Origin: Ruegeria sp. THAF57 | GTDB lineage: Bacteria; Pseudomonadota; Alphaproteobacteria; Rhodobacterales; Rhodobacteraceae | NCBI RefSeq assembly: GCF_903914075.1 | Contig: NZ_CAIWNQ010000008.1 | Coordinates: 1 to 64,000, forward strand | Direction: 5' to 3' | DNA: 64,000 nt | Shown: positions 1,788-27,052 of the stretch, one piece after another | Layout: each line of letters starts with the position of its first letter | Position numbering within the stretch: the first letter of the stretch is position 1 | Notes under the pieces: generated by a model | Told to the model about the DNA's origin: nothing | Databases searched by the model: none | Seen by the model: the letters and a program-made list of their open reading frames with translations, nothing else | Translations under genes and position numbers: made by a program

Positions 1788-2170
1788 TTATGTCTCCGTC
1801 ATTGGCCAGTGTTAAGGAACAGGTAGGTCGGTCTTATCACAGGACCAAGGCAACATGCGTCACGATTGGGAGAAGTGACTGTAACGAAAACGGCCGCCGA
1901 CCGAGGGCTTGGCCATGATCCAATAGCGGATCACGCCCGACAACCTGCAAATTTCGGGTCTAGTGACGCATACAGGCCATTCCGCTTTGTTTTTTTCGCT
2001 TTGTTTACATAGGGGACCTAGCGTCATGCTTGATATTGACGCCATACAGCGCACAGTTCCTGCGCTTACGTTTTTCTAGGCGCGAAGGGACGGAGTTTAC
2101 GACCAATGGACATCGGTCGCTGAGGTCGCGCTTTGAATGAAACGGCAAATTTGATCGGAAAGGACGAATT
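1788..2170. other. Intergenic region between divergent msrP and a small lipoprotein gene
   Basis: About 380 bp with no credible gene. It must hold the promoter of msrPQ on the minus strand and of the lipoprotein gene on the plus strand. A T-rich stretch near 1987-2005 stands out, but no promoter pair could be assigned with confidence. Confidence 0.4.
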
Positions 2171-2362
2171 ATGAAAACGAAACTGGTTGCGGGCCTGTCG
2201 CTGGTTCTGTTTATCGCTGCATGCGCAGAGAAAGAAACCTACCCCATCTCCGGGTGCGACTCGAATGAAACCTTCCCCGTGACCTGCGAGGAAATCGGAG
2301 AAGACACGAACCTGGATGAAAACAACGCACAGGACCTGAACGCATTGCCGACCGGCGCCTGA
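2171..2362 (+). CDS. Small acidic lipoprotein, unknown function
   Basis: This 63-residue protein has an n-region MKTK, a hydrophobic core and a lipobox ending FIAAC, so cleavage before Cys18 and lipidation are predicted. The mature part is about 45 residues, acidic, and contains two further cysteines (SGCDS and VTCEE) that could form a disulfide. The start is preceded by an AG-rich ribosome site (GGAAAGGAC) and the gene is followed by a strong terminator, which supports a real monocistronic gene despite its size. No family was recognised. Confidence 0.7.
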   Translation: MKTKLVAGLSLVLFIAACAEKETYPISGCDSNETFPVTCEEIGEDTNLDENNAQDLNALPTGA

Positions 2363-2411
2363 CGGCACCTGATCCAAAACACGGGGCTGTACCAGCCCCA
2401 ACCGGCCCTGG

Positions 2412-2440
2412 AAAAACCCGCCTTCTCTGGCGGGTTTTTT
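2412..2440 (+). terminator. Rho-independent terminator after the small lipoprotein gene
   Basis: Perfect stem AACCCGCC / GGCGGGTT around the short loop TTCTCT, followed by a run of T. It lies 50 bp after the stop of the lipoprotein gene. Confidence 0.85.
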
Positions 2441-2504
2441 GTTGGGGCTGCGCATTCCGACAAGCAGATACATTGGGTCGCCGTGGGGACACGTTCACAC
2501 CAAA

Positions 2505-2842
2505 AGGCTATGCAGGTTGATTTTCAAAGCGGCGGTTGCGTCTGGGGTGGCTGCAACAGCCGCCAGCGCGTCGACACCTATGACTATGGCCGCGGGTCAT
2601 AGCAAGATCCAAGACATGACCCATACCATACGCCCCAACTTTCCCACCTAGTGGGCGAACCCGGCTACGCCCCAGAGCCGATGTTCAAGTTTTCTGAACA
2701 CGGTTTCAACCTGCAACGCCTGTCGGTGAACGAACATACGGGTACTCATATTGATGCGCCGTTGCGTTTTTCGGCTGACGGGGCTTCCGTCGACGAAATT
2801 TCGTTATCGGATCTGATCGCACCACTGTGCGCCGAAACATAG
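2505..2842 (+). pseudogene. Broken cyclase-family (KynB-like metal-dependent hydrolase) gene
   Basis: Two adjacent reading frames together give the N-terminal third of a secreted cyclase-family protein. The first frame has an alanine-rich leader and then GHSKIQDMTHTIRPNFPT. The second frame, joined at about 2650, has GEPGYAPEP and the family metal motif HTGTHIDAPLRF (normally HxGTHxDxPxHF). A one-base loss at ACCTAGTGGG (2647-2655) explains the frame change, since ACC TAC GTG GGC would read through. The gene stops at 2842 with no C-terminal two-thirds, and the last histidine of the motif is Arg. Intact homologues are about 250-300 residues, so this is a degraded remnant. Confidence 0.75.
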
Positions 2843-2966
2843 AGGGGGGGGTGCGGGCCTGCGCGGATATTCGCGATGATCTGAAGAAGTCGGGATGGAA
2901 CCAACCTATTCCTGCGTGTCCCACCCCATCTGAAAAGTGAACTTGTGCATTTTGATCCGGGCAACA

Positions 2967-2997
2967 AAAAAGACCCTCCGATCGGGAGGGTCTTTCT
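2967..2997 (-). terminator. clpB terminator
   Basis: Inverted repeat AGACCCTCCGATC / GATCGGGAGGGTCT flanked by A and T runs, 12 bp past the clpB stop. On the minus strand it is followed by TCTTTTTTGTTG. The near-symmetric flanks mean it could also stop transcription arriving from the pseudogene side. Confidence 0.85.
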
Positions 2998-3008
2998 TGT
3001 TCTTTAGG

Positions 3009-5627
3009 TCAGTGAACCACGGCGTCATCTGGTCTGGGTCGTTCAGACGTTCCCAGCCGATCCCCAATGATCAGCCCATCCGATCCGGCGGTCACGGGGA
3101 CAGTCTCACCATCCTTGATCTCTCCGGCTAACAAAGCCTCGGCCAGCGGGTTCTGCAGCGCTCGCTGAATCACGCGTTTCAACGGACGTGCGCCGAAAAC
3201 CGGATCATAGCCTTCGTTCGCCAGCCATTCCTTGGCCCCGTCGTCCAGCGCCAGTTCGATCTTGCGGGCGGCCAGACGTTTTTGCAGACGTGCCATCTGG
3301 ATATCAACGATGCCATCCATATCTGCCCGCTTGAGCCGGTCAAAGATGATGGTCTCGTCCAGACGATTCAGGAACTCGGGCCTGAAATGTGCCCGGACTG
3401 CATCCATCACATCGCGTCGTGCCTGCGCACTGTCGGCACCTTCCGGCAGTTGGCTGAGCGCCTGAGACCCGAGGTTCGACGTCAGAATGATCAGCGTCTG
3501 CTTGAAATCCACGGCACGGCCCTGACCATCGGTCAGAACACCATCGTCCAGAACCTGCAACAGCACGTTGAACACATCCGGGTGCGCCTTTTCGACCTCA
3601 TCGAACAGCACGACCTGATAGGGCCTGCGCCGCACGGCCTCGGTCAGCACACCGCCTTCGTCATAGCCGACATAGCCCGGAGGGGCCCCGATCAGACGGG
3701 CGACCGCGTGTTTCTCCATGAACTCCGACATATCGATGCGCACCATCGCGTTGTCGTCGTCAAAGAGGAAGTTGGCCACAGCCTTGGTCAGCTCGGTCTT
3801 ACCCACGCCGGTCGGCCCGAGGAACAGGAACGAGCCCAGCGGGCGGTTCTCATCGTTCAGGCCCGCGCGCGCACGGCGCACGGCGTTGGCAACGGCGGTC
3901 ACGGCGGCATCCTGACCGATCACGCGAGAATGCAGATCGTCTTCCATCCGCAGCAGCTTCTCGCGCTCACCCTCCAGCATTTTCGAGGTCGGGATTCCGG
4001 TCCAGCGCTCGACAACACTGGCGATCTGTTCCGGACGCACGGTTTCCTCAGCCATCATGGCGTTGCTTTCGGCGTTTTCGGCCTCGGTCAGCGTTTTCTC
4101 AAGCTCGGGGATGACGCCGTAGGAGAGTTCCCCGGCCTTGGCCAGATTGCCTTCGCGCTTGGCGATCTCCAGATCGGCGCGTGCCTTGTCGAGTTGTTCT
4201 TTCAGATCACGCGCACCGGCCAGCTTGTCGCGTTCGGCTTGCCATTGCGCGGTCATCTCTGCGGATTTCTCCTGCAGATCGGCCAGGTCCTTTTGCAAGG
4301 TTTCCAGACGGTCTTTGGAGGCCGCGTCATCCTCAAGCTTCAACGCCTCTTCCTCGATCTGCATTTGCAGAATCTGACGGTCGAGTTGGTCCAGCTCCTC
4401 GGGTTTGGAGTCTACCTCCATCCGCAAACGCGACGCCGCCTCATCGACAAGGTCGATGGCTTTGTCGGGCAGGAAACGGTCGGTGATATAGCGATGCGAC
4501 AGCGTCGCCGCCGACACCAACGCCGAGTCCGAGATGCGCACACCGTGGTGCAACTCGTACTTCTCCTTGATGCCGCGCAGGATGCTGATCGTGTCCTCGA
4601 CCGTGGGCTCCTGCACCATGACGGGCTGGAACCGGCGTGCAAGGGCCGCGTCTTTTTCAACGTATTTGCGGTATTCATCCAGCGTGGTCGCGCCGATACA
4701 ATGCAACTCACCCCGCGCCAAAGCGGGTTTGATCAGGTTGGCCGCATCCATCGCGCCGTCGGATTTCCCGGCGCCGACCAGCGTATGCATCTCGTCGATG
4801 AACAGGATGATCTCACCCGCGGCTTCGGTGACTTCGGTCAGAACGGCCTTGAGGCGTTCTTCGAACTCACCCCGGTATTTCGCACCAGCAATCAGCGCGC
4901 CCATATCCAGCGCCAGCAGCTTCTTGTCCTTCAGCGATTCCGGCACATCGCCGTTGACGATACGCAGGGCCATGCCCTCGGCAATCGCGGTTTTACCCAC
5001 GCCGGGCTCACCGATCAGAACCGGGTTGTTCTTGGTCCGGCGCGACAGAACCTGCATCGAACGTCGGATTTCCTCATCCCGCCCGATGATCGGGTCGATC
5101 TTGCCCTCAGCCGCAGCCTCGGTCAGGTCGCGCGCGTACTTCTTCAATGCGTCATATCCGTCCTCGGCAGACGCAGTGTCGGCGGTACGGCCCTTACGGA
5201 TGTCGTTGATCGCTTCGTTCAGTTTCTGCGCCGTCACAGCGCCATCTTCCAAGGCATCCTTGGCCTTGGATTTCACCATGCACAACGCCATTAGAATGCG
5301 TTCAACAGGAACAAAGCTGTCCCCTGCCTTGGTGGCAAGCTTTTCGGCCTCAGCCAGAACCTTGGCGGTCTGGCCATCCAGATAGACCTGCCCGGTATCG
5401 CCTTTGACCTTAGGAATGCGTGCCATAGATGCGTCCAGCGCGTTTACAACGCGGCTGGGCGCGCCCCCGGCGCGGGTGATCAGGTTGCTGGCCAGTCCCT
5501 GATCGTCATCCATTAATGCTTTCAGCAAATGTTCGGGCGTCAGGCGCTGATGCTCTTCCCGCATCGCAATGGTCTGCGCCGCTTGCACGAAACCCCGTGC
5601 CCGCTCGGTGAACTTGTTCAAGTCCAT
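3009..5627 (-). CDS. clpB: ClpB, protein-disaggregating AAA+ chaperone
   Basis: This 872-residue hexameric cytoplasmic disaggregase works with DnaK to rescue aggregated proteins after heat stress. Domains in order are the Clp N-domain (about 1-145), the first AAA+ module with Walker [10 protein letters not shown], a coiled-coil middle domain rich in Glu/Lys/Leu (about 400-530), the second AAA+ module with Walker [10 protein letters not shown], and the C-terminal small domain. The start at 5627 ([12 protein letters not shown]) is chosen over a longer frame because AAGGAG lies just upstream and the N-terminus then matches the family. A sigma-32-type promoter lies about 80-100 bp upstream. Length is normal. 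Confidence 0.97.
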
Positions 5628-16893: not shown

Positions 16894-17359
16894 GCTGTGG
16901 CCCACCTCTCAGAACGCAGCTTTTAGCCGTATATTCACGCTAAGCCGTCGTGCTTTGGCTGTTTCGATGCGCAACTCGCGGAATGACGGCTGCCAACGCG
17001 ACCGTATATAAGCCCGCAAGCAGGTGAGCTTCGACCATACCCAAAAGCCTCCCGAACGAGGTTTAGATCGGAGCGAGGACCTGACCGTATTGGAGGATGA
17101 CAGCTTCGAAGTCACGGGGCTGCAGGCCACAGCCGGCGGACAAGAGGATCTGGAATTCCATTGCTTAAAAATTTGTAGGGACGCTCATAACGATGCATTC
17201 CCAACATTGATTTCATTGAAGAAAATCTTGGAAGCTTGTCCATAACTCTGCGCGGTATTTGCGCATAACTTTGCACGATTTGCCCATAAGTTTGCGTGCC
17301 ACAGAGAACCCATCGAACAAACCAGCTCCTATGGCTTATCTGCAATTCTCAAATGCAAC
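16894..17359. other. Gene-free stretch at the left border of the island
   Basis: About 465 bp without a credible gene. It carries the repeat array at 17237-17296 described separately. Short open frames on both strands here have no family character. Confidence 0.5.
17237..17296 (+). repeat. Array of about 21-bp direct repeats, transposon-end-like (left border)
   Basis: TGTC is followed by three consecutive units: CATAACTCTGCGCGGTATT..., CATAACTTTGCACGATTTGC... and CATAAGTTTGCG (truncated). Spacings are 23 and 21 bp. The second unit matches a unit at 27364-27384 in 20 of 21 positions. A terminal TGT with tandem 20-odd-bp sites pointing inwards is how ends of Tn7/Tn5053/Mu-type transposons look (transposase-binding sites). 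No transposase gene is in the window. Confidence 0.55.
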
Positions 17360-17842
17360 TTATTCCCAATCGCCAGCAGACGAGCGCCACGTCTTAGCGT
17401 CCGCATCCCAAGCACTGGCGGTGACGCAAGGCGTCGGGTTTATTCCATCGCAATTGGATCCATGAATATCTGCCACAACAACGCGTTGACGCCCAAAATC
17501 AACGACCGTCCAGCCTTGGTTAAGCAAGGAGTGCACCTCTTCACTAATCCAAAAGTGCGACATGCATCCGCCAGTACCGCAATAAAGAGATGCGGCGCTT
17601 GAACACGCGAATCCAGACTCATTCAGAACCCAGTCGTGTTGAAGATCTCCGTCGAGATCGACCCTCTCAACCGCACCCCAGGCTATGTCAAACTGACCGT
17701 CGTTGAACTCCCCGCAGGCCTGTTCCGCCAGATCAACCTTTGCCCGCAAACCGGGCGGAAGTTGCGAAACATCAGCCGCAACAGCTGGTGAGGTCCAAAC
17801 AAGGCCCGAAGCAAGCACAATCCCGGCGACCAAACATTTCAT
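17360..17842 (-). CDS. Secreted protein, unknown function, cysteine-rich
   Basis: This 160-residue protein has a Sec signal peptide (MKCLVAGIVLASG, cleavage after a TSPAVAA-like site). The mature part contains six cysteines, with YCGTGGCMSHFW and SNCDGINPTPC giving likely disulfide pairs. It also has an aspartate-rich loop VDLDGDLQHDW reminiscent of calcium-binding or FG-GAP-type repeats. Similar uncharacterised periplasmic proteins occur in Rhodobacteraceae. The start at 17842 is chosen over an upstream Met because the signal peptide begins there. It lies 37 bp downstream of another exported protein and is probably in one operon with it. Confidence 0.7.
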   Translation of the reverse strand: MKCLVAGIVLASGLVWTSPAVAADVSQLPPGLRAKVDLAEQACGEFNDGQFDIAWGAVERVDLDGDLQHDWVLNESGFACSSAASLYCGTGGCMSHFWISEEVHSLLNQGWTVVDFGRQRVVVADIHGSNCDGINPTPCVTASAWDADAKTWRSSAGDWE

Positions 17843-17879
17843 CTGACGCGCTATTTGGAAAGCTGGTAGGCAGGAGGTA

Positions 17880-18650
17880 TCAATTGCACTGATCATACCT
17901 GTAGTCCCCATATTCCAGCCAGTTTTCCGAGCCGTCGCTAAAAATCAGAAACTCGGACCTGTCTTCCCCAAGCAGGGCGACGAAAAATCCGGTCGGCGGC
18001 TCAGAGTTTCCGAAGTAGCTGTAGGCGGTCATGGCTCTGATCGACTCGCCGTTGACCGTCACTCGCGCGTCCCACTCCCCCTCTGGATTGTCCAAAATTA
18101 CGGGTTCGATCACGCGCTCTATCGCCCCGCCACCACAATAGACGATGCCTTCGGGTGCTTCGTAGGAGGCCCCCTGACCATCATCTGAATCGCACGCGGA
18201 ACGAAGGGACCGAATTGCCGCGCCGGAACCTTTTAAGTCAAAGATTCCATAGCTGATATCTTGATCAACCATCGACAAGTTTACCGATGCATTGGCCGCA
18301 AGCTGGTCTAGTACAAAACCATAGTCCTGCTGACTGTTGAAGCTGACCTCGACCGGATAATTGTCGACGATTTGCACGGCAGCGTTTTCTGCGCCAACCT
18401 GAAATGCCCCAACTTCGGTGGTGCCGTTCTTCAAAAAACGAATGGAGAGCCCTTGCTTCTCCACAATGTCCCGGCTGTCCTCATATCCAGCCGGAGCAAA
18501 GCGGATACGGTTACACTGAAGCTCCAGGGTCATGTTTCCTGTCTGAATAAATGCATTGGGATTAGGCCCGGAGTTGAACGACCACTCCGCTGATGCTGTG
18601 GTCGCTCCTGCCATCAGTAGCATTCCAATGGAAATGGTTTTTAAGCTCAT
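17880..18650 (-). CDS. Exported protein, unknown function
   Basis: This 256-residue protein begins MSLKTISIGMLLMAG with a cleavage site after ASA, so it is predicted periplasmic. The mature region opens WSFNSGPNPNAF. A later FDLKGSGAAIRSLRSACDSDD resembles the C-terminal motif of small Rhodobacterales proteins of unknown function. GAGAGAAAAA precedes the start. It lies upstream of the cysteine-rich secreted protein gene in the same direction. No catalytic motif was recognised. Confidence 0.72.
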   Translation of the reverse strand: MSLKTISIGMLLMAGATTASAEWSFNSGPNPNAFIQTGNMTLELQCNRIRFAPAGYEDSRDIVEKQGLSIRFLKNGTTEVGAFQVGAENAAVQIVDNYPVEVSFNSQQDYGFVLDQLAANASVNLSMVDQDISYGIFDLKGSGAAIRSLRSACDSDDGQGASYEAPEGIVYCGGGAIERVIEPVILDNPEGEWDARVTVNGESIRAMTAYSYFGNSEPPTGFFVALLGEDRSEFLIFSDGSENWLEYGDYRYDQCN

Positions 18651-18723
18651 TTTTTCTCTCCATTGAGTTACGGTTCGCACTGTCATTCGGCAGAGATTCC
18701 GGCCAATTGCCCGGACAGCCAGG

Positions 18724-19239
18724 TCAGAAAACAGGTTCGCCGTATTCGTTTGCGCCTTCTTGAGAAGGTCGTGTCAGCCACCAGATCATCAGGACGGACA
18801 GAACCAATTGAAGAATTGAGACAACAACAATACCGGTCACGCCCAGGACTGCCGCTGGTCCTCGCAATGCATCGGGGTTTTCGGTCCCTTGCTCCAATAC
18901 CGAAAAGAACGCTACCCCACCCAGCATAACAAAAAGCGTTGTAATGCTGAGCGCCATCGGCAGCAGCAAATACCAGCCAGGTCGTCCTGTATCATGCAGC
19001 CTTCGCCAACCGGCGGCCAGCATAGGTACGAGAACAGCCAGTTGGAAAACAGAGGACAGAACCCGAGATCCCTGCCCTGTTTCGGGGTTGGTCCCGAATA
19101 TGATCGTATCCAGCACAGCTAAAGCAGCACTCATGAGAACCACAAACAAGAAGAACCACCAGTATTCTGAGCGTATGGCCCGACCGGAGAACTGGAAGTA
19201 TTTCGAGAAACACGTCTTAACGGCTTCACCAAATCCCAT
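18724..19239 (-). CDS. DUF805 family inner-membrane protein
   Basis: This 171-residue protein has four predicted transmembrane helices and the DUF805 features FSGRAIRSEYWWFFLF near the N-terminus and GWRRLHDTGRPGWYLLLP in the middle. DUF805 proteins are inner-membrane proteins without an agreed function. It faces the same way as the two exported proteins downstream, with a 73-bp gap to the next start, so it may head a three-gene unit. Confidence 0.88.
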   Translation of the reverse strand: MGFGEAVKTCFSKYFQFSGRAIRSEYWWFFLFVVLMSAALAVLDTIIFGTNPETGQGSRVLSSVFQLAVLVPMLAAGWRRLHDTGRPGWYLLLPMALSITTLFVMLGGVAFFSVLEQGTENPDALRGPAAVLGVTGIVVVSILQLVLSVLMIWWLTRPSQEGANEYGEPVF

Positions 19240-19788: not shown

Positions 19789-20088
19789 ATGTCTGACAAG
19801 ATGGTGATGATTGCAGGCGCGACATGTTTCGCACTGCTTGCGGCCTGCGACGATACGAGTACATCAAGCGCGTCCGCCGAGCTCACGCCGGCTCAGCAGG
19901 CGTGTTTGCGAGATGTAGCCAGCGCGACGAACAACTCGCAAGTCGTAGTACTCTCATCCGCGTTTAGCGAGGCGGGAACACAAGTCACTGTCGGCGTTGG
20001 CGAGGATCGTGCTCCTTGGAATTGCATTGCTTACAGTGATGGCGCGACAGCTGGTATCGAGTTCCTGGGCGACGAAGGCGCATTGTAA
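19789..20088 (+). CDS. Lipoprotein with FSEAGT...CIAY domain, unknown function
   Basis: This 99-residue lipoprotein has the lipobox LLAAC, a linker rich in Ser/Thr/Ala, then a compact domain with QQACLRDV, SSAFSEAGTQVTV and APWNCIAYSDGATAG. The same pattern (SS-x-FSEAGT-x-V ... W-x-CIAY-x-DG) recurs in the exported protein at 20807-21421, so the two share a paralogous domain with two conserved cysteines. The gene has GGGAGAAGAAA just upstream. It is the first of a run of small exported proteins that leads to the kinase-like/phosphatase-like genes. Confidence 0.75.
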   Translation: MSDKMVMIAGATCFALLAACDDTSTSSASAELTPAQQACLRDVASATNNSQVVVLSSAFSEAGTQVTVGVGEDRAPWNCIAYSDGATAGIEFLGDEGAL

Positions 20089-20451: not shown

Positions 20452-20751
20452 ATGGGAAAAATGATCTTGGGTATTGTGATCGGGCTCGTCCTCGGCGTGG
20501 TTGGGGCGATGACCTTGGGTGGCGGGGCCGCAGTGGGTGTCGGCGTTGCGACAGGCTTGTCCGCCGGTGTCTGCACCACATTGAAAGGAGCACAAGCTGA
20601 GAACCTTATCACCGCCGAGCAAGCGGATCAGATCCTCAACCGCGTAAACTCCGAAATGGCGTCACTGCAAGGAATTGAAACGACGGGCGAGATCGTCGGC
20701 AGCGCACAGGCGTGCGATGAATTTCTGTCAAAGTTACGAGAAGCGAAGTGA
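20452..20751 (+). CDS. Small protein with N-terminal glycine/valine-rich membrane segment
   Basis: This 99-residue protein begins MGKMILGIVIGLVLGVVG, and its hydrophobic, glycine-rich stretch runs to about residue 42, a signal anchor or signal peptide. It is followed by a polar helical domain with NLITAEQADQILNRVNSEM and two cysteines (GVCTTLK and AQACDEF). The start at 20452 is fixed by the strong GGGAGGAAAA just upstream. A longer frame without a ribosome site was rejected. No family was recognised. Confidence 0.7.
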   Translation: MGKMILGIVIGLVLGVVGAMTLGGGAAVGVGVATGLSAGVCTTLKGAQAENLITAEQADQILNRVNSEMASLQGIETTGEIVGSAQACDEFLSKLREAK

Positions 20752-20806
20752 GGTTTCGCTTTGTAAGGAACAAATCTCTAAGGACAAGCCAACAGGGAAC
20801 CATCTG

Positions 20807-21421
20807 ATGAAACTCGTTTTATTCAAACTCCTCACGCCCATGTTCGCAATCGCGGGCGCAGCTGCCTTTGCAATGTCAGAAGCCGACGACGCGTGTATCG
20901 ACCATTTGCGGCAGGTTGGTGGACCAGACGGTCAGTCCGGTACGATTGAAAGCTCAGAGTTCTCAGAAGCGGGCACGCTCGTCATGCTGCGAGATGCAGG
21001 TGGAACACTTTGGCGCTGCATCGCGTACAAGGATGGAAGCATCGGCGAGATGTCGGTTGTCGAAGCGATGGATGATGGCAGTGGAGCCATGGCAGGCGCC
21101 GCCGGGTCTACTGGTAGCCAACGTGTCAAATTTGATTCTGGTTCCACTGGCGCAGAACTTGTTGGTGAACTCGCGCCCGGAGCGTCGCATCAATACGTTC
21201 TGGGTGCCAAAAACGAACAGTTCCTCTGCGTTCGCGTTGCTCCGCGAAATGGCTCCTTGGACTACGTTATTCGCAACCCCGATGGTTCTGAACTGTTGGG
21301 ATTGATGTCGGCGGACAAGGAGTATCGAGGACAGCTTTGGCAATCTGGTGATCATGTTGTGGAGGTCATCAATCGCAGCAACTCTTCCGTCGGCTACAAC
21401 GTAATTTTCGGAATTGAATAG
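20807..21421 (+). CDS. Exported protein with FSEAGT...CIAY domain plus C-terminal beta domain
   Basis: This 204-residue protein has a Sec signal peptide (MKLVLFKLLTPMFAIAG, cleavage near AFA-MSEA). Residues 25-85 repeat the domain of the lipoprotein at 19789: DDACIDHLRQ, SSEFSEAGTLV and TLWRCIAYKDGS. After a glycine/serine linker, residues 110-204 form a second domain (FLCVRVAPRNGSLDYVIRNP ... DHVVEVINRSNSSVGY) that looks like the pre-peptidase C-terminal type beta-sandwich found on secreted proteins. It belongs to the same run of exported proteins. Function is unknown. Confidence 0.72.
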   Translation: MKLVLFKLLTPMFAIAGAAAFAMSEADDACIDHLRQVGGPDGQSGTIESSEFSEAGTLVMLRDAGGTLWRCIAYKDGSIGEMSVVEAMDDGSGAMAGAAGSTGSQRVKFDSGSTGAELVGELAPGASHQYVLGAKNEQFLCVRVAPRNGSLDYVIRNPDGSELLGLMSADKEYRGQLWQSGDHVVEVINRSNSSVGYNVIFGIE

Positions 21422-21473: not shown

Positions 21474-21779
21474 ATGAAACCCAAGGTCCTATTGGTGATC
21501 GGCACAGCGTGTATTACTGCGCTTGCAGCATGCGACGACAGTGGTGGATCAGTGGATGCGAGTGCACCAACTGTGGGCAGCTCTAGCGATCTTTCGTCAT
21601 TTGAAGGGGCAAGAGCGGGCCAAGCTGAAATGGGCATCCAGAGTCTCGGATTTGAACTCGTCCGCAGCGAAGGGCTGACCTCGTACTGGTTTAACAAGGA
21701 TACTGGTGCTTGTGCTCGGATCACGACGTCTGAGGGAAGGTACTCAGATGTAACTATGCTGCCATCAGGTGACTGCTGA
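21474..21779 (+). CDS. Small lipoprotein with C-terminal YWFNKDTGAC motif
   Basis: This 101-residue protein has the lipobox ALAAC, a Ser/Gly linker, and a folded C-terminal part: MGIQSLGFELVRSEGLTSYW, FNKDTGACARITTSEGRYSD and a terminal SGDC. Two cysteines could pair. Small proteins with this YWF-N-x-x-TG-x-C pattern are common and uncharacterised in proteobacteria. It has AAGGAAAAA upstream and lies 52 bp after the preceding exported-protein gene. Confidence 0.72.
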   Translation: MKPKVLLVIGTACITALAACDDSGGSVDASAPTVGSSSDLSSFEGARAGQAEMGIQSLGFELVRSEGLTSYWFNKDTGACARITTSEGRYSDVTMLPSGDC

Positions 21780-22116: not shown

Positions 22117-22761
22117 ATGCGGTTTTTGATATCCCTCATATTCATTGGTGTTCTCGCAACCGCTGCGAGTTCTGACGTGACCAGTCGAAATGGCGGTCCA
22201 AGCAGCAGTCAAATGCTCTCAAAGGGTGGTGACGGTGGCGTCGATGGTGTCGCTTTCTTTCGCCCGGTCTTGAGCGGTGTCTTGTATCGATCCGGTTTCA
22301 AGGGCGGCGACAAGGAGCGAACGGGCCTGAGTGAAGGTCAACGCGAAACTCTGTGCGGTGAAGGGTTTTCAACCGGGTTTTATGCCGACTTTGGCAAAAA
22401 CACTGAATACGGTCGCACCAGTTGTGGAAACGGATCCTTTGACTATCAAAGTGCCAGATCCTCCCGACCCGGTGCTGTCATGGCGTCCATACACGAGGTG
22501 ATTGAAAACCCTGGAAAAGGCCCTGTTCTGGTGCACTGCATGTGGGGCGTTCATTCCTCCGGAGTTTTGTCGGCAATGGCGCTCGTTCAGTTTTGCGGTT
22601 GGACGGAAGAAAGGGCCAAGGATTATTGGAATGAGGCCCGAAACGGGGCCCCATGTTCAGGCGGGTGTGACCAGTGGATTGACTCAAAGTTCTCCAAATT
22701 CAGTGTCGACCCCAATTTGACGATCTCTACCGAACAACAGGCAGCGATTTGCCCCAAATGA
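22117..22761 (+). CDS. Exported dual-specificity/tyrosine phosphatase-like protein lacking the catalytic Arg
   Basis: This 214-residue protein has a Sec signal peptide (MRFLISLIFIGVLATAAS), so it acts outside the cytoplasm. Near residue 140 it carries VLVHCMWGVHSSG, which aligns with the cysteine-phosphatase P-loop HCx5R. The catalytic Cys is present (Cys141), but the invariant Arg position (147) is Ser. FFRPVLSGVLYRSG resembles the phosphatase segment before the core. Either it is a pseudophosphatase that binds phospho-ligands, or a divergent enzyme with altered chemistry. AAAGGAG precedes the start. It lies 19 bp upstream of the kinase-like gene and is surely in one operon with it. Confidence 0.72.
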   Translation: MRFLISLIFIGVLATAASSDVTSRNGGPSSSQMLSKGGDGGVDGVAFFRPVLSGVLYRSGFKGGDKERTGLSEGQRETLCGEGFSTGFYADFGKNTEYGRTSCGNGSFDYQSARSSRPGAVMASIHEVIENPGKGPVLVHCMWGVHSSGVLSAMALVQFCGWTEERAKDYWNEARNGAPCSGGCDQWIDSKFSKFSVDPNLTISTEQQAAICPK

Positions 22762-22780
22762 TATTGGGAGAACTATCCAA

Positions 22781-24214
22781 ATGAAGTTCATTCTTCTGTG
22801 GTCACTTGCTTTCATTGCACCCACCGTCGTGTGGGCGAACGACGATGTTCTAGGTGAAGCCACGACATTTGATAGTCCCAACGGCGTTACGGAACGCTGC
22901 ATTCGGATCGAAAAAGTTCCAACGGGCGCGTATCAAAAAAGCGATCTTGAGGAAGAGACAGCCTATTGCGAGATCGATTTCTATGCGTCCGAATTTGCCA
23001 TTTGCCCAAAAACCTGGAGCACCAGCCCAGGAATGGCCGTCTACGATATTTCGGAAGGTCCCTACGTGGGGAAGCGCTCTGAGTTCGAGAGAAACGCTTG
23101 CAAAGAGGGGAAGGCGGCGAAAGATCTAGCCAAGGACAGGGTGGCCAAATTCAAATCCACCATGAACCAAAAGGGCACCAGTGGAACCTTTTCTACCTCG
23201 TCGCTGCTTTACTATCATTTCTCCAGATATTTCGACGCGACTGTAAAAGTTCCAGTCGCCGTTTGGCGAAGCATGGACGCCCAGACGCATTTTTCCGAGG
23301 TTGCAGAGCCTGGCCTTGCGATTTCTGGCGGCTCTCATGGCGGGCGCATGAACCACGAAGGCTGGCGGGTCTTCGCGGCTGCGGATGCCGACCCAAACTC
23401 ATACCAACCAACCGATGATCTGTTCACCTCGGATCGAACGCAAATATACGGTGTACTGCTTGATAGTCCTGGGCATCGATACGGTTCGGAAATCAACGGC
23501 ACCCGCAAGTCTGGATGGGGGAAGGGTCAGAACCGCGATTTTCAGGAAACCCCCGCTTTCCTAGCTTTGCGTTCTTCAAAACCCATGCCAGAGGCAATTG
23601 CAGAGGGTGTTAGTGAAGGCCGAAAAGACCGGATGATCAACAAGGATCTCGGCCCGGATGTCAGTGACCAACAGATGGCGTTTTGGATGCAAGAGCTTAC
23701 CGAGATCGTGCTCCTCGACTTCATCTTTAGCCAGCAAGACCGCGTGGGAAACATAGACTTCACACCCTATTGGTATTGGGTCGAAGACGGAGAACTGAAG
23801 CATAAGAAAGCCAAGCACCATGAGCCAAACGATGGAGACATTCCCGCCGAGGCACGATTGATCCGTCGCAGCAATCTAAACGACAACGATGCTGGTGGGC
23901 GGGTAGCGTATGCCAACTTCGCGAAGTCCACTCAAATGCTGGAGAAAATGCGACACTTCTCTCCAAGTACGTATCGACGCTTGGTTTCTTTGAATAACGA
24001 TCTTAAATCTCAAGGTCCCGTCTACGGCTGGCTGTCGCAGAGCCTTGGGTTGTCAGATAGGCAGATTGCACAAGTTGTAAAAAACACCCAGCTGGCAACG
24101 TCCATCCTCCAGGACAATTGTTCAAATGGCGATTTGATGTTCGACTTGGATCCTGTCGCATTCTTTTTGAGAAACGGCACCGAGGTAGAGGCTGTGGACT
24201 GTTATGAACCGTAG
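22781..24214 (+). CDS. Predicted secreted atypical kinase-like protein (FAM20/HipA-like motifs)
   Basis: This 477-residue protein has a signal peptide (MKFILLWSLAFIAPTVVWA). Its middle part has SSLLYYHFSRYFDATVKVPV, like the segment that places VPp in HipA/FAM20-type kinases. LLDFIFSQQDRVGNIDF (Asp320, Asn324) resembles the catalytic loop D-x-x-x-N, and RRSNLNDNDAGGRVAY (Asp368, Asp370) resembles the metal-binding DFG-like Asp. The C-terminal helical region follows. The assignment to a kinase fold is inference from these motifs only. It could phosphorylate exported proteins, sugars or lipids. It lies between the phosphatase-like gene and a metallophosphoesterase that overlaps its end by 11 bp. 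Confidence 0.6.
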   Translation: MKFILLWSLAFIAPTVVWANDDVLGEATTFDSPNGVTERCIRIEKVPTGAYQKSDLEEETAYCEIDFYASEFAICPKTWSTSPGMAVYDISEGPYVGKRSEFERNACKEGKAAKDLAKDRVAKFKSTMNQKGTSGTFSTSSLLYYHFSRYFDATVKVPVAVWRSMDAQTHFSEVAEPGLAISGGSHGGRMNHEGWRVFAAADADPNSYQPTDDLFTSDRTQIYGVLLDSPGHRYGSEINGTRKSGWGKGQNRDFQETPAFLALRSSKPMPEAIAEGVSEGRKDRMINKDLGPDVSDQQMAFWMQELTEIVLLDFIFSQQDRVGNIDFTPYWYWVEDGELKHKKAKHHEPNDGDIPAEARLIRRSNLNDNDAGGRVAYANFAKSTQMLEKMRHFSPSTYRRLVSLNNDLKSQGPVYGWLSQSLGLSDRQIAQVVKNTQLATSILQDNCSNGDLMFDLDPVAFFLRNGTEVEAVDCYEP

Positions 24215-25145
24215 GTGGTCTGCTCTTATTGCGGTGTTCATTTGGACCGCTCTGCTAACCTGCAAAGCGGCGGCATTGGATGTCATCGTCATATCGGATC
24301 TGAACGGAAGCTATGGCTCGGTAAAATACGATGCGCGCGTCGACAAGGCGATTAAGCGGATAATCGAGATTAATCCCGATCTGGTGATTTCGACGGGCGA
24401 TATGGTCGCGGGACAACGAATTCCCAATCTGTCAGACAAACAGGTCAGGGAGATGTGGAAGGCGTTTCACAAGGCCGTATCAGATCCTTTAGCGGCTGCC
24501 GGAATTCCATTTGCGGTCACGCCTGGAAACCATGATGCCTCCGCCTACCGAGGGTTCGAGCGTGAAAGAAAAATATACGCAGAGGAATGGGCACCAAGAA
24601 AGCCAGATGTCGATTTCCAGGTTTCGGATGACTACCCGTTCTTCTACGCGTTTGAGATGCAGGGCGTAACGTTTGCATCTTTGGATGCTACGACCTTAGG
24701 GCCGCTATCCGGTGATCAGCAGGACCGACTTGTGGAACTGGGTGCAAATGGAAATCCGGTTGTCACTTTCAGTCACCTCCCGCTTTGGCCCTTCGCGATC
24801 CAGCGCGAACGCGAAATTATCGGTGACCCAACACTTGAAAAAATCTATCTAGAAAGCGGTGTCGTTCTGCATCTGTCAGGCCACCATCATGCCTTCTACC
24901 CAGGCTGGAAAGACGGTGTGGCTTATGTTTCCCAAGCTTGTTTGGGAGGTGGCCCGCGACGGCTTATTGGTGACAATGTCAAATCACCTCACAGCTTCAC
25001 TCATGTTACGTTCCAACCAAACGGAGAGTTTGGGATAGCAGTATATCGAGGGCCTGATTTCGAAAGGTCAGTAAACTTCAAATCGCTCCCGAAAGAGATC
25101 AGATCCCCGAATGCGGTGTTGAAACGCTTAGACCTTGTGAAATAA
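24204..25145 (+). CDS. Exported calcineurin-like metallophosphoesterase
   Basis: This 313-residue protein starts 11 bp inside the end of the kinase-like gene. A signal peptide (residues 1-25, ending KAAALD) targets it to the periplasm. Metal motifs in order: VISDLNGSYGS (Asp32; the usual His of DxH is Asn34), STGDMV (Asp66), TPGNHD (Asn109, His110), FSHLPL and SGHHHAF. The active site is otherwise complete for a binuclear phosphoesterase. The substitution at the first motif recalls a family subset with SDLN, so activity is plausible. Its placement suggests removal of phosphate or a phosphodiester in the same process as its two neighbours. Confidence 0.85.
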   Translation: MNRRWSALIAVFIWTALLTCKAAALDVIVISDLNGSYGSVKYDARVDKAIKRIIEINPDLVISTGDMVAGQRIPNLSDKQVREMWKAFHKAVSDPLAAAGIPFAVTPGNHDASAYRGFERERKIYAEEWAPRKPDVDFQVSDDYPFFYAFEMQGVTFASLDATTLGPLSGDQQDRLVELGANGNPVVTFSHLPLWPFAIQREREIIGDPTLEKIYLESGVVLHLSGHHHAFYPGWKDGVAYVSQACLGGGPRRLIGDNVKSPHSFTHVTFQPNGEFGIAVYRGPDFERSVNFKSLPKEIRSPNAVLKRLDLVK

Positions 25146-25964
25146 TTAGAGGTTGAGTTTCAGCTCAACTTTTTCAGGGACCAGATCGTTTATCATCTCT
25201 TCGATCCGGGCTTCTGAAAGTCCTCCCGAGGTGATGAAAAGCAATGAAACGCGAGATTTTCCAGGGACGTGGTGTTTTCTGACAAGCTTCCAGCCAGCGT
25301 CCGCGGCCATGGCTTCAATGTCTCCGCTGACTTTCAATGAGTGTTCTTCATCTGAAGCCTTGAGTGAAACTTCCACGCCCTTGTTTCGCCCTCCGAGCCA
25401 AATGAAGCACCAACACACAATCGCCACCAGTGTGGCCATCAGCGGTAAGCCCAGCCCTACCGCCAGCCCAAGCACGGTCACTATAATCATTTCGACTGTA
25501 TCGACCGGATCATCCAGATTGGAGCGGAACCTGAGCAACGCACCGATGCCAAAAATAACGAAACCAATCATTGACCCGTGCTGGACTACCAGGAATCCCA
25601 CAGCCATTCCAATTAGCGCGTAAAGGAAGAACAGTCTGGGCATAACCAGATCGTTGACACTTCGGCGTGATTTACGTCGTACGGGATGATAAACAATCAA
25701 AGCGGTCAAAATGATCGTTACAATGACGTCTAGAGTGAAGAAGTAGAGCTCCTGCTTGCCGCGGAACTGAGTCCAGCCTCGTTCAATCACTATCTCTGAC
25801 TCGGATGTTCCCGCAAGCAAGGAAGCTGGATCGATCTGAGAATAGCTAACACTAGGTAAAAGCACCGCCAAAAGGACCGATGCAATCGAAAATAGCTTAC
25901 TCAACAGACTTTCCCTCCCGCTGAAACGTCGAATAGTCGCTCTGTAGTGAGTAACTTGGCTCAA
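25146..25964 (-). CDS. DUF4956-like multi-helix membrane protein
   Basis: This 272-residue protein has an N-terminal hydrophobic leader (LLSKLFSIASVLLAVLL), then about four transmembrane helices. GFVIFGIGALLRFRSNLDDP is the hallmark of DUF4956, and a soluble C-terminal domain (about 190-272, ending VPEKVELKLNL) follows. DUF4956 genes are often found beside VTC-type polyphosphate polymerases and CotH-like kinases, none of which is seen here. The gene is convergent with the metallophosphoesterase, with adjacent stops (25145/25146). Function is unknown. Confidence 0.7.
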   Translation of the reverse strand: MSQVTHYRATIRRFSGRESLLSKLFSIASVLLAVLLPSVSYSQIDPASLLAGTSESEIVIERGWTQFRGKQELYFFTLDVIVTIILTALIVYHPVRRKSRRSVNDLVMPRLFFLYALIGMAVGFLVVQHGSMIGFVIFGIGALLRFRSNLDDPVDTVEMIIVTVLGLAVGLGLPLMATLVAIVCWCFIWLGGRNKGVEVSLKASDEEHSLKVSGDIEAMAADAGWKLVRKHHVPGKSRVSLLFITSGGLSEARIEEMINDLVPEKVELKLNL

Positions 25965-26107: not shown

Positions 26108-27052
26108 ATGAACAAAGTCCACACGAGCGCAGATTTATCTCGAATGAACCAGCCAAATGATCGGCACAAACGAAGAGTAGCGAAGGTAATTTGCGCGAGC
26201 CTGACTCTGCTCGCCAACACTTTAGCGTCGACGAGCCATGTGAGAGCGCAGATTGATATGTTGGAACTTATTAAGTCTCACAAAGTGGCAGATAAATCTG
26301 AGGGCTTTTCTGAGCCATCTGGGTTATCGCTTTCCAGCGTTGATGGATTCTTATGGGCAGTAAGCGATGAAGCATCGAAGCTGCACCTTCTAGGAGTAGA
26401 TGGAGAGCTAAAGAGTTCGTTCAGACTTCCAGAATATCTAGGCGCAGACTTGGAAGGTGTCGCGGGAAGAAAGGATGGGTCTGTATTGCTGTTACAAGAA
26501 ACTGACCGATCAATCGTAACGGTCCAACCTACAGACCCAATTAAAATCAACTCTACTCCAATTTCTTCACTCAGGGGCTACGGCAAAGTTGCTGAAATGC
26601 TTGCTGAGAACCCTTTGAACAAGGGGCCGGAAGGGATCACTGTAGATCAAGACTCTGGGAAAATATTCTTGGTCATAGAGGGTCAACCAAGACTGCTGCT
26701 CATCATTTCGCCAGAGATTGATGAGATTATTGGAGTAGTTCCATTGACGGCTGAGGCTGGTTTCGTTTCATCTCGTGCCGACGATGACGAATTAGACATC
26801 AGCGGGATCGCCTGGTCCGGCAAGACCAAGTCTTTATGGGTACTCAGCGATGAAGGGCGCCGAATATTCGTTTTTGATCCTGAAGTTCTGACGGTCAAAA
26901 CTATCGACTTAATTTACTCCAAAAAGGATGAAGTAAAGGAAGTGAAGAACCCTGAGGGGATAGCTTTGGATGAAAGTAGTGGCGTTCTATACATCTTGAC
27001 CGATGATGGAAAAAAGTCACGCCTCTACGCATTTGTTTTACCGCAGGTTTGA
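26108..27052 (+). CDS. SdiA-regulated/esterase-like beta-propeller exported protein
   Basis: This 314-residue protein is predicted to be exported: HKRRVAKVICASLTLLA is a signal core, with a site near VRA-QIDM. The mature protein has repeated blades with FSEPSGLSLSSVDGFLWAVS, GADLEGVAGRKDGSVLLLQE, KGPEGITVDQDSGKIFLV, DISGIAWSGKTKSLWVLS and KNPEGIALDESSGVLYI, the pattern of SdiA-regulated/phytase-like propellers. Such proteins may bind calcium or act on phosphate esters, but their activity is mostly untested. The base composition is visibly AT-richer than the catabolic cluster to its right. A second in-frame Met is at 26144. Confidence 0.7.
   Translation: MNKVHTSADLSRMNQPNDRHKRRVAKVICASLTLLANTLASTSHVRAQIDMLELIKSHKVADKSEGFSEPSGLSLSSVDGFLWAVSDEASKLHLLGVDGELKSSFRLPEYLGADLEGVAGRKDGSVLLLQETDRSIVTVQPTDPIKINSTPISSLRGYGKVAEMLAENPLNKGPEGITVDQDSGKIFLVIEGQPRLLLIISPEIDEIIGVVPLTAEAGFVSSRADDDELDISGIAWSGKTKSLWVLSDEGRRIFVFDPEVLTVKTIDLIYSKKDEVKEVKNPEGIALDESSGVLYILTDDGKKSRLYAFVLPQV

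Follow-up and report, generated by a model that had tools for sequence, protein, structure and literature searches.

Introduction

Bacteria are known to use atypical kinases for phosphorylation outside the cytoplasm: CotH acts in this way in spore coats according to passages of PMC7821199 and PMC12189002, and the source of the phosphate donor is left open even for CotH in a passage of the former. In Gram-positive Pel loci, excerpts of PMC7112168 place DUF4956 beside CotH and a polyphosphate polymerase. For TpbA, the periplasmic dual-specificity phosphatase of Pseudomonas aeruginosa, a part of PMC4409338 assigns the phosphate-binding loop to residues 131-138 and describes a contact between Arg138 and phosphate. 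Here, we have analysed a stretch of 64,000 nucleotides from Ruegeria sp. THAF57 (contig NZ_CAIWNQ010000008.1, positions 1 to 64,000; hereafter the window), in which three consecutive genes encode a protein with the fold of protein tyrosine phosphatases (PTP), a kinase-like protein (KIN) and a metallophosphoesterase (MPE). We argue, with a probability of about 0.5, that they form an extracytoplasmic phosphorylation module carried on a genomic island, in which KIN is an exported kinase, PTP its non-hydrolytic partner and MPE its counterpart, accompanied by accessory parts. The titles and opening lines of abstracts listed in our searches of openly licensed PubMed Central papers contain no description of such a module.

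Three linked genes for probable exported proteins

The initial annotation, made from the sequence alone, described three open reading frames (ORFs) with a 19-bp gap between PTP and KIN, an 11-bp overlap between KIN and MPE, and the motifs HCMWGVHSSG in PTP, DxxxN and DND in KIN and SDLN in MPE, all of which are present (Table 1). The named loci that match best belong to Ruegeria species, which identifies the host as Ruegeria or a close relative. Signal peptides had also been assigned to all three proteins. Each N terminus carries one or two positive residues, then a run of hydrophobic residues and, after it, small residues at which cleavage is plausible, and the top 12-residue hydrophobic stretch within the first 40 residues is stronger than any elsewhere in the protein. 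In addition, six cysteines of KIN (16 sequences) and seven of PTP (15 sequences) are invariant. Judging from the N-terminal stretches and from these cysteines, PTP, KIN and MPE are probably exported, in agreement with the annotation.

The ratio of nonsynonymous to synonymous substitution rates (dN/dS) of PTP, KIN and MPE against the loci L030, L040 and L041 was 0.07-0.14 in nine of nine comparisons. Since this ratio is so low and the trio is found together in all 30 loci described below, the ORFs are not chance occurrences. Promoter and terminator scans performed no better than on shuffled sequence.

KIN has a kinase-like fold in its structural model

The KIN of the window has no Pfam or NCBIfam match at expect values (E) up to 1, and no match in the PDB was returned by sequence or by profile search. 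When 16 KIN members were scanned against Pfam at E up to 10, no match to Fam20C, CotH or HipA_C (PF07804) was found; the sole matches, to Stealth_CR1 (E 0.0078) and DUF6496 (E 0.61), occurred in one member each and concern unrelated families. HipA_C had no match in the genome of the window either. A weak match of KIN to SWIM_XIII in PADLOC (E 0.048) was taken as chance.

The AlphaFold model of KIN, built from a 16-sequence alignment, reached a predicted local distance difference test score (pLDDT) of 69.9 and a predicted template modelling score of 0.76. In a Foldseek search of the PDB with this model, the top five matches were all Fam20, with E from 0.018 to 0.19. A second structure aligner gave a Z of 12.9 to hydra Fam20 over 258 residues at 4.3 Å, followed by PI4KII (11.7), Golgi casein kinase (10.7), CtkA (9.6), HipT (8.4), CotH (7.8) and HipA (7.4), and among the 50 matches listed all were kinases or kinase complexes. 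The 477-residue protein had been proposed to be a kinase of the FAM20/HipA type, and both structural searches bear this out at the level of the fold. As modelled, KIN has a kinase fold of the protein-kinase-like superfamily and falls in its Fam20/CotH/HipA/PI3K branch.

The residues K125, D320, R321, N324, D368, N369 and D370 are invariant in 10 KIN sequences, the most distant of which is 29% identical. Five cysteines out of the six are likewise present throughout, and Cys447 is absent from one sequence. Pseudokinases usually lose some of the lysine, the catalytic aspartate and the metal-binding aspartate, whereas in KIN the lysine, the catalytic-type aspartate with its asparagine and the metal-type aspartates are all retained. 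This conservation speaks against the idea, which we regard as quite improbable, that KIN might be a pseudokinase, act as another kind of transferase (AMPylating or glutamylating) or serve as a Fam20A-like activator, in a module of structural or regulatory function. Such non-catalytic use of phospho-enzyme folds would be plausible here because PTP has already lost a catalytic residue, and there are precedents: passages of PMC7948968 describe Fam20A as a secreted pseudokinase and cite AMPylating and glutamylating pseudokinases.

PTP has lost the arginine of its P-loop

All Pfam matches of PTP fall below their cut-offs (DSPc, 15.1 bits vs 33.5; Y_phosphatase, 14.8 vs 20.9; best E 0.021). Its model (pLDDT 74.5) has a clear fold of the PTP and dual-specificity phosphatase (DSP) type, with a best Z of 14.2 to DUSP23, and the 50 matches listed in the structure comparison are all PTP-fold proteins; Foldseek returned DUSP5 (E 6.4e-5) and TpbA (E 1.1e-4). 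It had been noted that the P-loop cysteine is kept and the arginine of the CX5R motif replaced by serine. This is true of the window protein (Ser147), and each of the 18 distinct PTP sequences has Ser or Ala in place of the arginine, the cysteine being kept; the 18 come from alignments of 15 and 9 sequences that share the window protein and five loci. One of them, from a different order and 33% identical, has the loop HCWYGLHASG. Because the arginine is missing throughout and dN/dS is low, its loss must be old and the protein still under constraint. PTP is probably non-hydrolytic.

Among the structural neighbours of PTP are the inositol pyrophosphate (PP-InsP) phosphatase SIW14, AtPFA-DSP1 and PTPMT1 with phosphatidylinositol 5-phosphate, and PI4KII is the second-best structural group for KIN. 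Since PI4KII and the PP-InsP phosphatases are close structural neighbours, the strongest rival explanation has an exported KIN phosphorylate not a protein but a lipid, a glycan or a small molecule of the envelope, with PTP, MPE and a phytase-like protein encoded nearby (PHY) binding or processing one and the same small phosphate ester, such as an inositol phosphate. The match of PHY to a phytase-like family would suit such a role, as would the title given to Fam20B, 'the secreted xylose kinase', in a part of PMC7948968. We consider this explanation possible, if doubtful: Fam20 ranks first for KIN, above PI4KII, and Fam20C phosphorylates proteins according to literature excerpts; the structural and family matches show no substrate; and the Pfam scan of 11 proteins of the surrounding block contained no glycan or lipid biosynthesis family.

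MPE retains the motifs of metallophosphoesterases

MPE matches Metallophos (PF00149) with 59.5 bits, well above the cut-off of 21.5, and its profile resembles purple acid phosphatases (E 1.6e-6). The residues D32, N34, G65-D66, N109-H110, H191 and G226-H-H-H229 are invariant in 15 MPE sequences. The canonical first motif of calcineurin-like phosphoesterases is DxH; in MPE it is SDLN (residues 31-34), and DxN is found in 15 of 15 sequences. It is plausible that MPE is an active phosphoesterase, and no test result speaks to the contrary.

The resemblance of MPE to purple acid phosphatases, taken together with the family match of PHY, could also point to ordinary phosphorus scavenging, in which exported phosphatases and a phytase-like esterase free phosphate from organic esters. 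This explanation fits poorly and is very unlikely: it leaves no place for the kinase fold of KIN, and PTP is without the arginine that grips phosphate in TpbA, as described in a part of PMC4409338. Moreover, the window has only 3 matches to the PHO box (an 18-bp pattern), each with 3 mismatches, fewer than the chance mean of 4.6; none stands just upstream of the operon, and one lies inside the MPE gene.

The trio co-occurs across genomes

A scan of a genome collection yielded 36 stretches, 32 of them with a relative encoded, and 30 loci at which gene presence was scored by tblastn at E up to 1e-5. PTP, KIN and MPE occur together in 30 of 30 loci, MPE being cut by the contig end in L036. A gene for a DUF4956-like membrane protein is present in 29 of the 30 and PHY in 26; L036 (both genes) and L047 (PHY) run into contig ends, L050 and L052 have no PHY detectable by tblastn, and L039 and L056 have a stop close to where their PHY match begins. 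The neighbourhood search suggested with the initial annotation thus does not refute its proposal of a module. That the trio forms a unit holds for its strict co-occurrence, and has to be widened in that the DUF4956-like protein, the beta-propeller protein PHY and small exported proteins also travel along.

Among 390 genomes of the order, including that of the window, KIN was found in 26 (13 of 139 genera) and PTP likewise in 26; 25 genomes share both, and the two genes are adjacent by coordinates. Within Ruegeria, all 18 KIN-positive genomes have MPE and none of the 19 KIN-negative ones does; G034 shows no more than end fragments. Fisher tests gave p of ~4e-37 for KIN and PTP and 6e-11 for MPE, values that are overstated since relatedness was ignored. 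The gene order varies: in L049, L053 and L054 the trio comes after the DUF4956-like and phytase-like genes. Because the order is shuffled, the linkage is not merely inherited synteny. In L088 neither a DUF4956-like nor a phytase-like gene could be detected with the trio; L089 has all five genes.

A KIN relative at 42-44% identity, with intact motifs, lies at 2088-3587 (-) of L087, with no PTP or MPE in the 12 kb examined. The exceptions to the pairing of KIN and PTP in the order are G306, where a KIN of 42-44% identity stands alone, and G197, whose lone PTP is a 42-residue piece with a stop. A KIN fragment in L024/L090 (G066), among ORFs judged transposase-like by eye, was read as a remnant. 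In a plasmid collection, neither KIN nor PTP had a match at E up to 0.001; a single MPE relative (31% identity, Acaryochloris) had no other module gene among the 11 annotated features around it.

The module is carried on a variable island

Block borders were drawn by comparison with loci of Ruegeria and Tropicibacter, 16 in all. In L027, L032, L033, L036, L038 and L055 the common block starts at ~17170-17280 of the window. For the remaining loci, a number of them truncated by contig ends, the start lies at 18.5-22 kb. Most loci share DNA up to a point near 25800, L031, L034 and L039 up to ~27110, and a second piece of L041 reaches 27057. Outside the block collinearity is lost: window DNA from ~36.7 kb onwards is matched by five loci and that from ~44.2 kb onwards by two, and in these loci the downstream matches stand much closer to the block. 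The GC content is 0.46-0.55 over 17-27 kb, compared with 0.55-0.59 just upstream; downstream it is mixed (0.50-0.57). The module is carried on a patchily distributed island with varying flanks.

Beyond the order, wider searches for KIN found it in 2 of 398 genomes of the phylum (that of the window and G606), and in 1 of 297 genomes of the order of G606 and 1 of 60 of its genus, in both cases G606 itself. In this genome, assigned to another order by its kinship label, the PTP and KIN genes overlap and are 33% and 29% identical to those of the window. Within 18 kb around the pair there are a histidine-phosphatase-like gene just below the Pfam cut-off and another exported-looking protein. As this one distant genome shows only PTP and KIN, the pair may, as far as gene content tells, be the core of the module. 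The exported-looking protein beside the pair (L110, 5176-6339, +) carries QQWDRYSGGN and TDNGG motifs that resemble those of KIN; its comparison with the KIN profile was not significant (E 0.28), and a second kinase there is a lead only.

Accessory genes of the block

The membrane protein encoded next to MPE scores 18.8-19.0 bits against PF16316, below the cut-off of 30.6. Twelve of 13 aligned sequences, that of the window included, match this family weakly at E up to 0.1 (best 8.8e-5), and we therefore call the protein DUF4956-like, below the threshold for family membership. True DUF4956 genes were found in 3 of 91 relatives. In the two of these genomes inspected (G003 and G009, both Ruegeria without KIN), the DUF4956 gene directly adjoins a gene for a VTC polyphosphate polymerase; DUF4956/VTC neighbours in KIN-negative Ruegeria lie at 5580-6997 of L115 and 6515-7887 of L116. 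Given these VTC neighbours and the CotH neighbours of the Pel loci, the DUF4956 family recurs beside phosphotransfer enzymes, including another atypical kinase, which is an association and not a mechanism. Among the 11 proteins scanned with Pfam from the block in the window, none matches VTC.

PHY in Ruegeria occurs as two diverged alleles, 88-91% identical in L031, L034 and L039 and 57-64% in other Ruegeria loci; KIN identity stays at 88-96% while the PHY alleles diverge, as if PHY had been swapped by recombination. The small proteins u1, u2 and u4 have no Pfam match at E up to 0.1. In several genera their genes occur close to the module, in varying order; the proteins are candidate partners or targets. 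Across genomes u2 follows KIN: all 18 KIN-positive Ruegeria have it (one at E 5e-4), as against 2 of the 19 that lack KIN (one at E 9.7e-4), and in other genera it is present in 16 of 18 KIN-positive vs 4 of 20 KIN-negative genomes, with weak cases on both sides. In G001 (C1, ~46,000-83,000), two KIN/PTP/MPE sets with u2 stand ~32 kb apart in the same orientation.

Table 1. Features of the module and its block in the window
Feature	Position	Strand	Remarks
PTP: probable exported PTP/DSP-fold protein without the CX5R Arg	22117..22761	+	214 aa
PTP P-loop HCMWGVHSSG, residues 140-149	22534..22563	+	Cys141 invariant; CX5R Arg position is Ser147
KIN: probable exported protein, predicted kinase fold, Fam20/CotH/HipA-like	22781..24214	+	477 aa
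KIN Lys125, candidate nucleotide-binding lysine	23153..23155	+	invariant; putative role
KIN D320-R-V-G-N324, candidate catalytic loop	23738..23752	+	conserved; residues 319-323 at pLDDT <50
KIN D368-N369-D370, candidate metal-binding site	23882..23890	+	conserved; residues 369-378 at pLDDT <50
MPE: probable exported calcineurin-like metallophosphoesterase, first motif DxN	24204..25145	+	313 aa
DUF4956-like membrane protein	25146..25964	-	convergent with MPE; weak Pfam similarity, linkage
PHY: SdiA-regulated/phytase-like beta-propeller, probably exported	26108..27052	+	Pfam match, linkage
u1: small probable lipoprotein	21474..21779	+	linked to module
u2: small exported protein	20675..21421 (start probably 20807)	+	tracks module across genomes
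u4: small exported protein	19789..20088	+	linked to module
u5: DUF805 membrane protein	18724..19239	-	within block common to several Ruegeria loci
u3: exported protein	17880..18686	-	within block common to several Ruegeria loci
Probable exported protein	17360..17911	-	within block common to several Ruegeria loci

Discussion

The fold of the KIN model, the conservation of its candidate active-site residues, the strict co-occurrence of the trio and the purifying selection on all three genes are best accommodated by an extracytoplasmic phosphorylation module. In this module, KIN would transfer phosphate to a periplasmic or surface target by means of K125, D320/N324 and D368/D370; this direction of phosphate flow is inferred. 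PTP, in which strong purifying selection has preserved Cys141 and a large part of the P-loop without the phosphate-gripping arginine, would most likely act as a non-hydrolytic partner of KIN, whether as an adaptor, as a regulator or as a binder of the phosphorylated target. MPE would plausibly be its hydrolytic counterpart. As accessory parts, the beta-propeller and the DUF4956-like membrane protein could perhaps serve in anchoring or in the supply of the phosphate donor, and u1, u2 and u4 are candidate targets by linkage. The initial annotation cast KIN, PTP and MPE as writer, reader and eraser of a phosphate mark, and we use these terms for what the three proteins might do.

Several points weigh against the proposed module. 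KIN is without a sequence-level match to any kinase family in our searches, and its Foldseek scores are modest (E-values of 0.02-0.2, TM-scores of 0.29-0.42). The segments with its candidate active-site residues (319-323 and 369-378) have pLDDT <50, so that their geometry in the model is tentative. No phosphate donor is known outside the cytoplasm, and the activity of KIN is a prediction. Moreover, G306 has a KIN, 42-44% identical, without PTP or MPE nearby, and the 18 kb examined around the PTP-KIN pair of G606 yielded neither MPE nor a DUF4956-like gene, so that the full circuit is not obligatory. The most complete form of the proposal, a self-contained extracytoplasmic phospho-circuit of Gram-negative bacteria with a Fam20-like writer, an Arg-less PTP-fold reader, an MPE eraser and small exported targets, its donor supplied or coupled by a membrane protein and the whole set on one mobile island, is speculative and, as a whole, unlikely.

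If KIN is active, it would be a Fam20-like kinase with dedicated partners in the envelope of marine bacteria, and it would make testable how phosphate marks work outside the bacterial cytoplasm and where their donor originates. PTP adjoins KIN in all genomes seen with both genes, and the arginine is also absent from the single relative in another order. PTP thus lends itself to tests of how a phosphatase fold may serve without hydrolysis.

We would like to compare the module with the known systems part by part. KIN is like Fam20A/B/C, its best structural match, in being (probably) secreted, in its conserved cysteines and in its candidate catalytic-type and metal-type aspartate motifs. It differs from them in that the identity in the structural alignment is ~11%, with no sequence-profile match, and in that it is bacterial and its gene adjoins that of an Arg-less PTP-fold protein. 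PTP shares with TpbA a PTP/DSP fold, probable export and the P-loop cysteine, and its sequence profile matches TpbA (E 0.014); unlike TpbA, whose Arg138 grips phosphate in the excerpted text of its source, PTP has Ser or Ala at this position. MPE resembles the PF00149 phosphoesterases in its match above the cut-off and its invariant metal-ligand motifs, and differs in having DxN in place of DxH.

A further parallel is CotH, an atypical kinase acting outside the cytoplasm, as is proposed for KIN; in structure, KIN is nearer to Fam20 than to CotH. The gene groups of CotH, polyphosphate polymerase and DUF4956 by the Pel loci, as far as their source is excerpted, also place a DUF4956-type membrane protein beside an atypical kinase; the present block differs in that no VTC polymerase is among its scanned proteins, PTP and MPE are added, and the host is Gram-negative. 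According to the initial annotation, extracytoplasmic phosphate marking by such a set would be a new kind of bacterial module, a claim that we do not uphold: because CotH already phosphorylates outside the cytoplasm, in spore coats, the KIN module is a variant on a known theme and not a wholly new kind.

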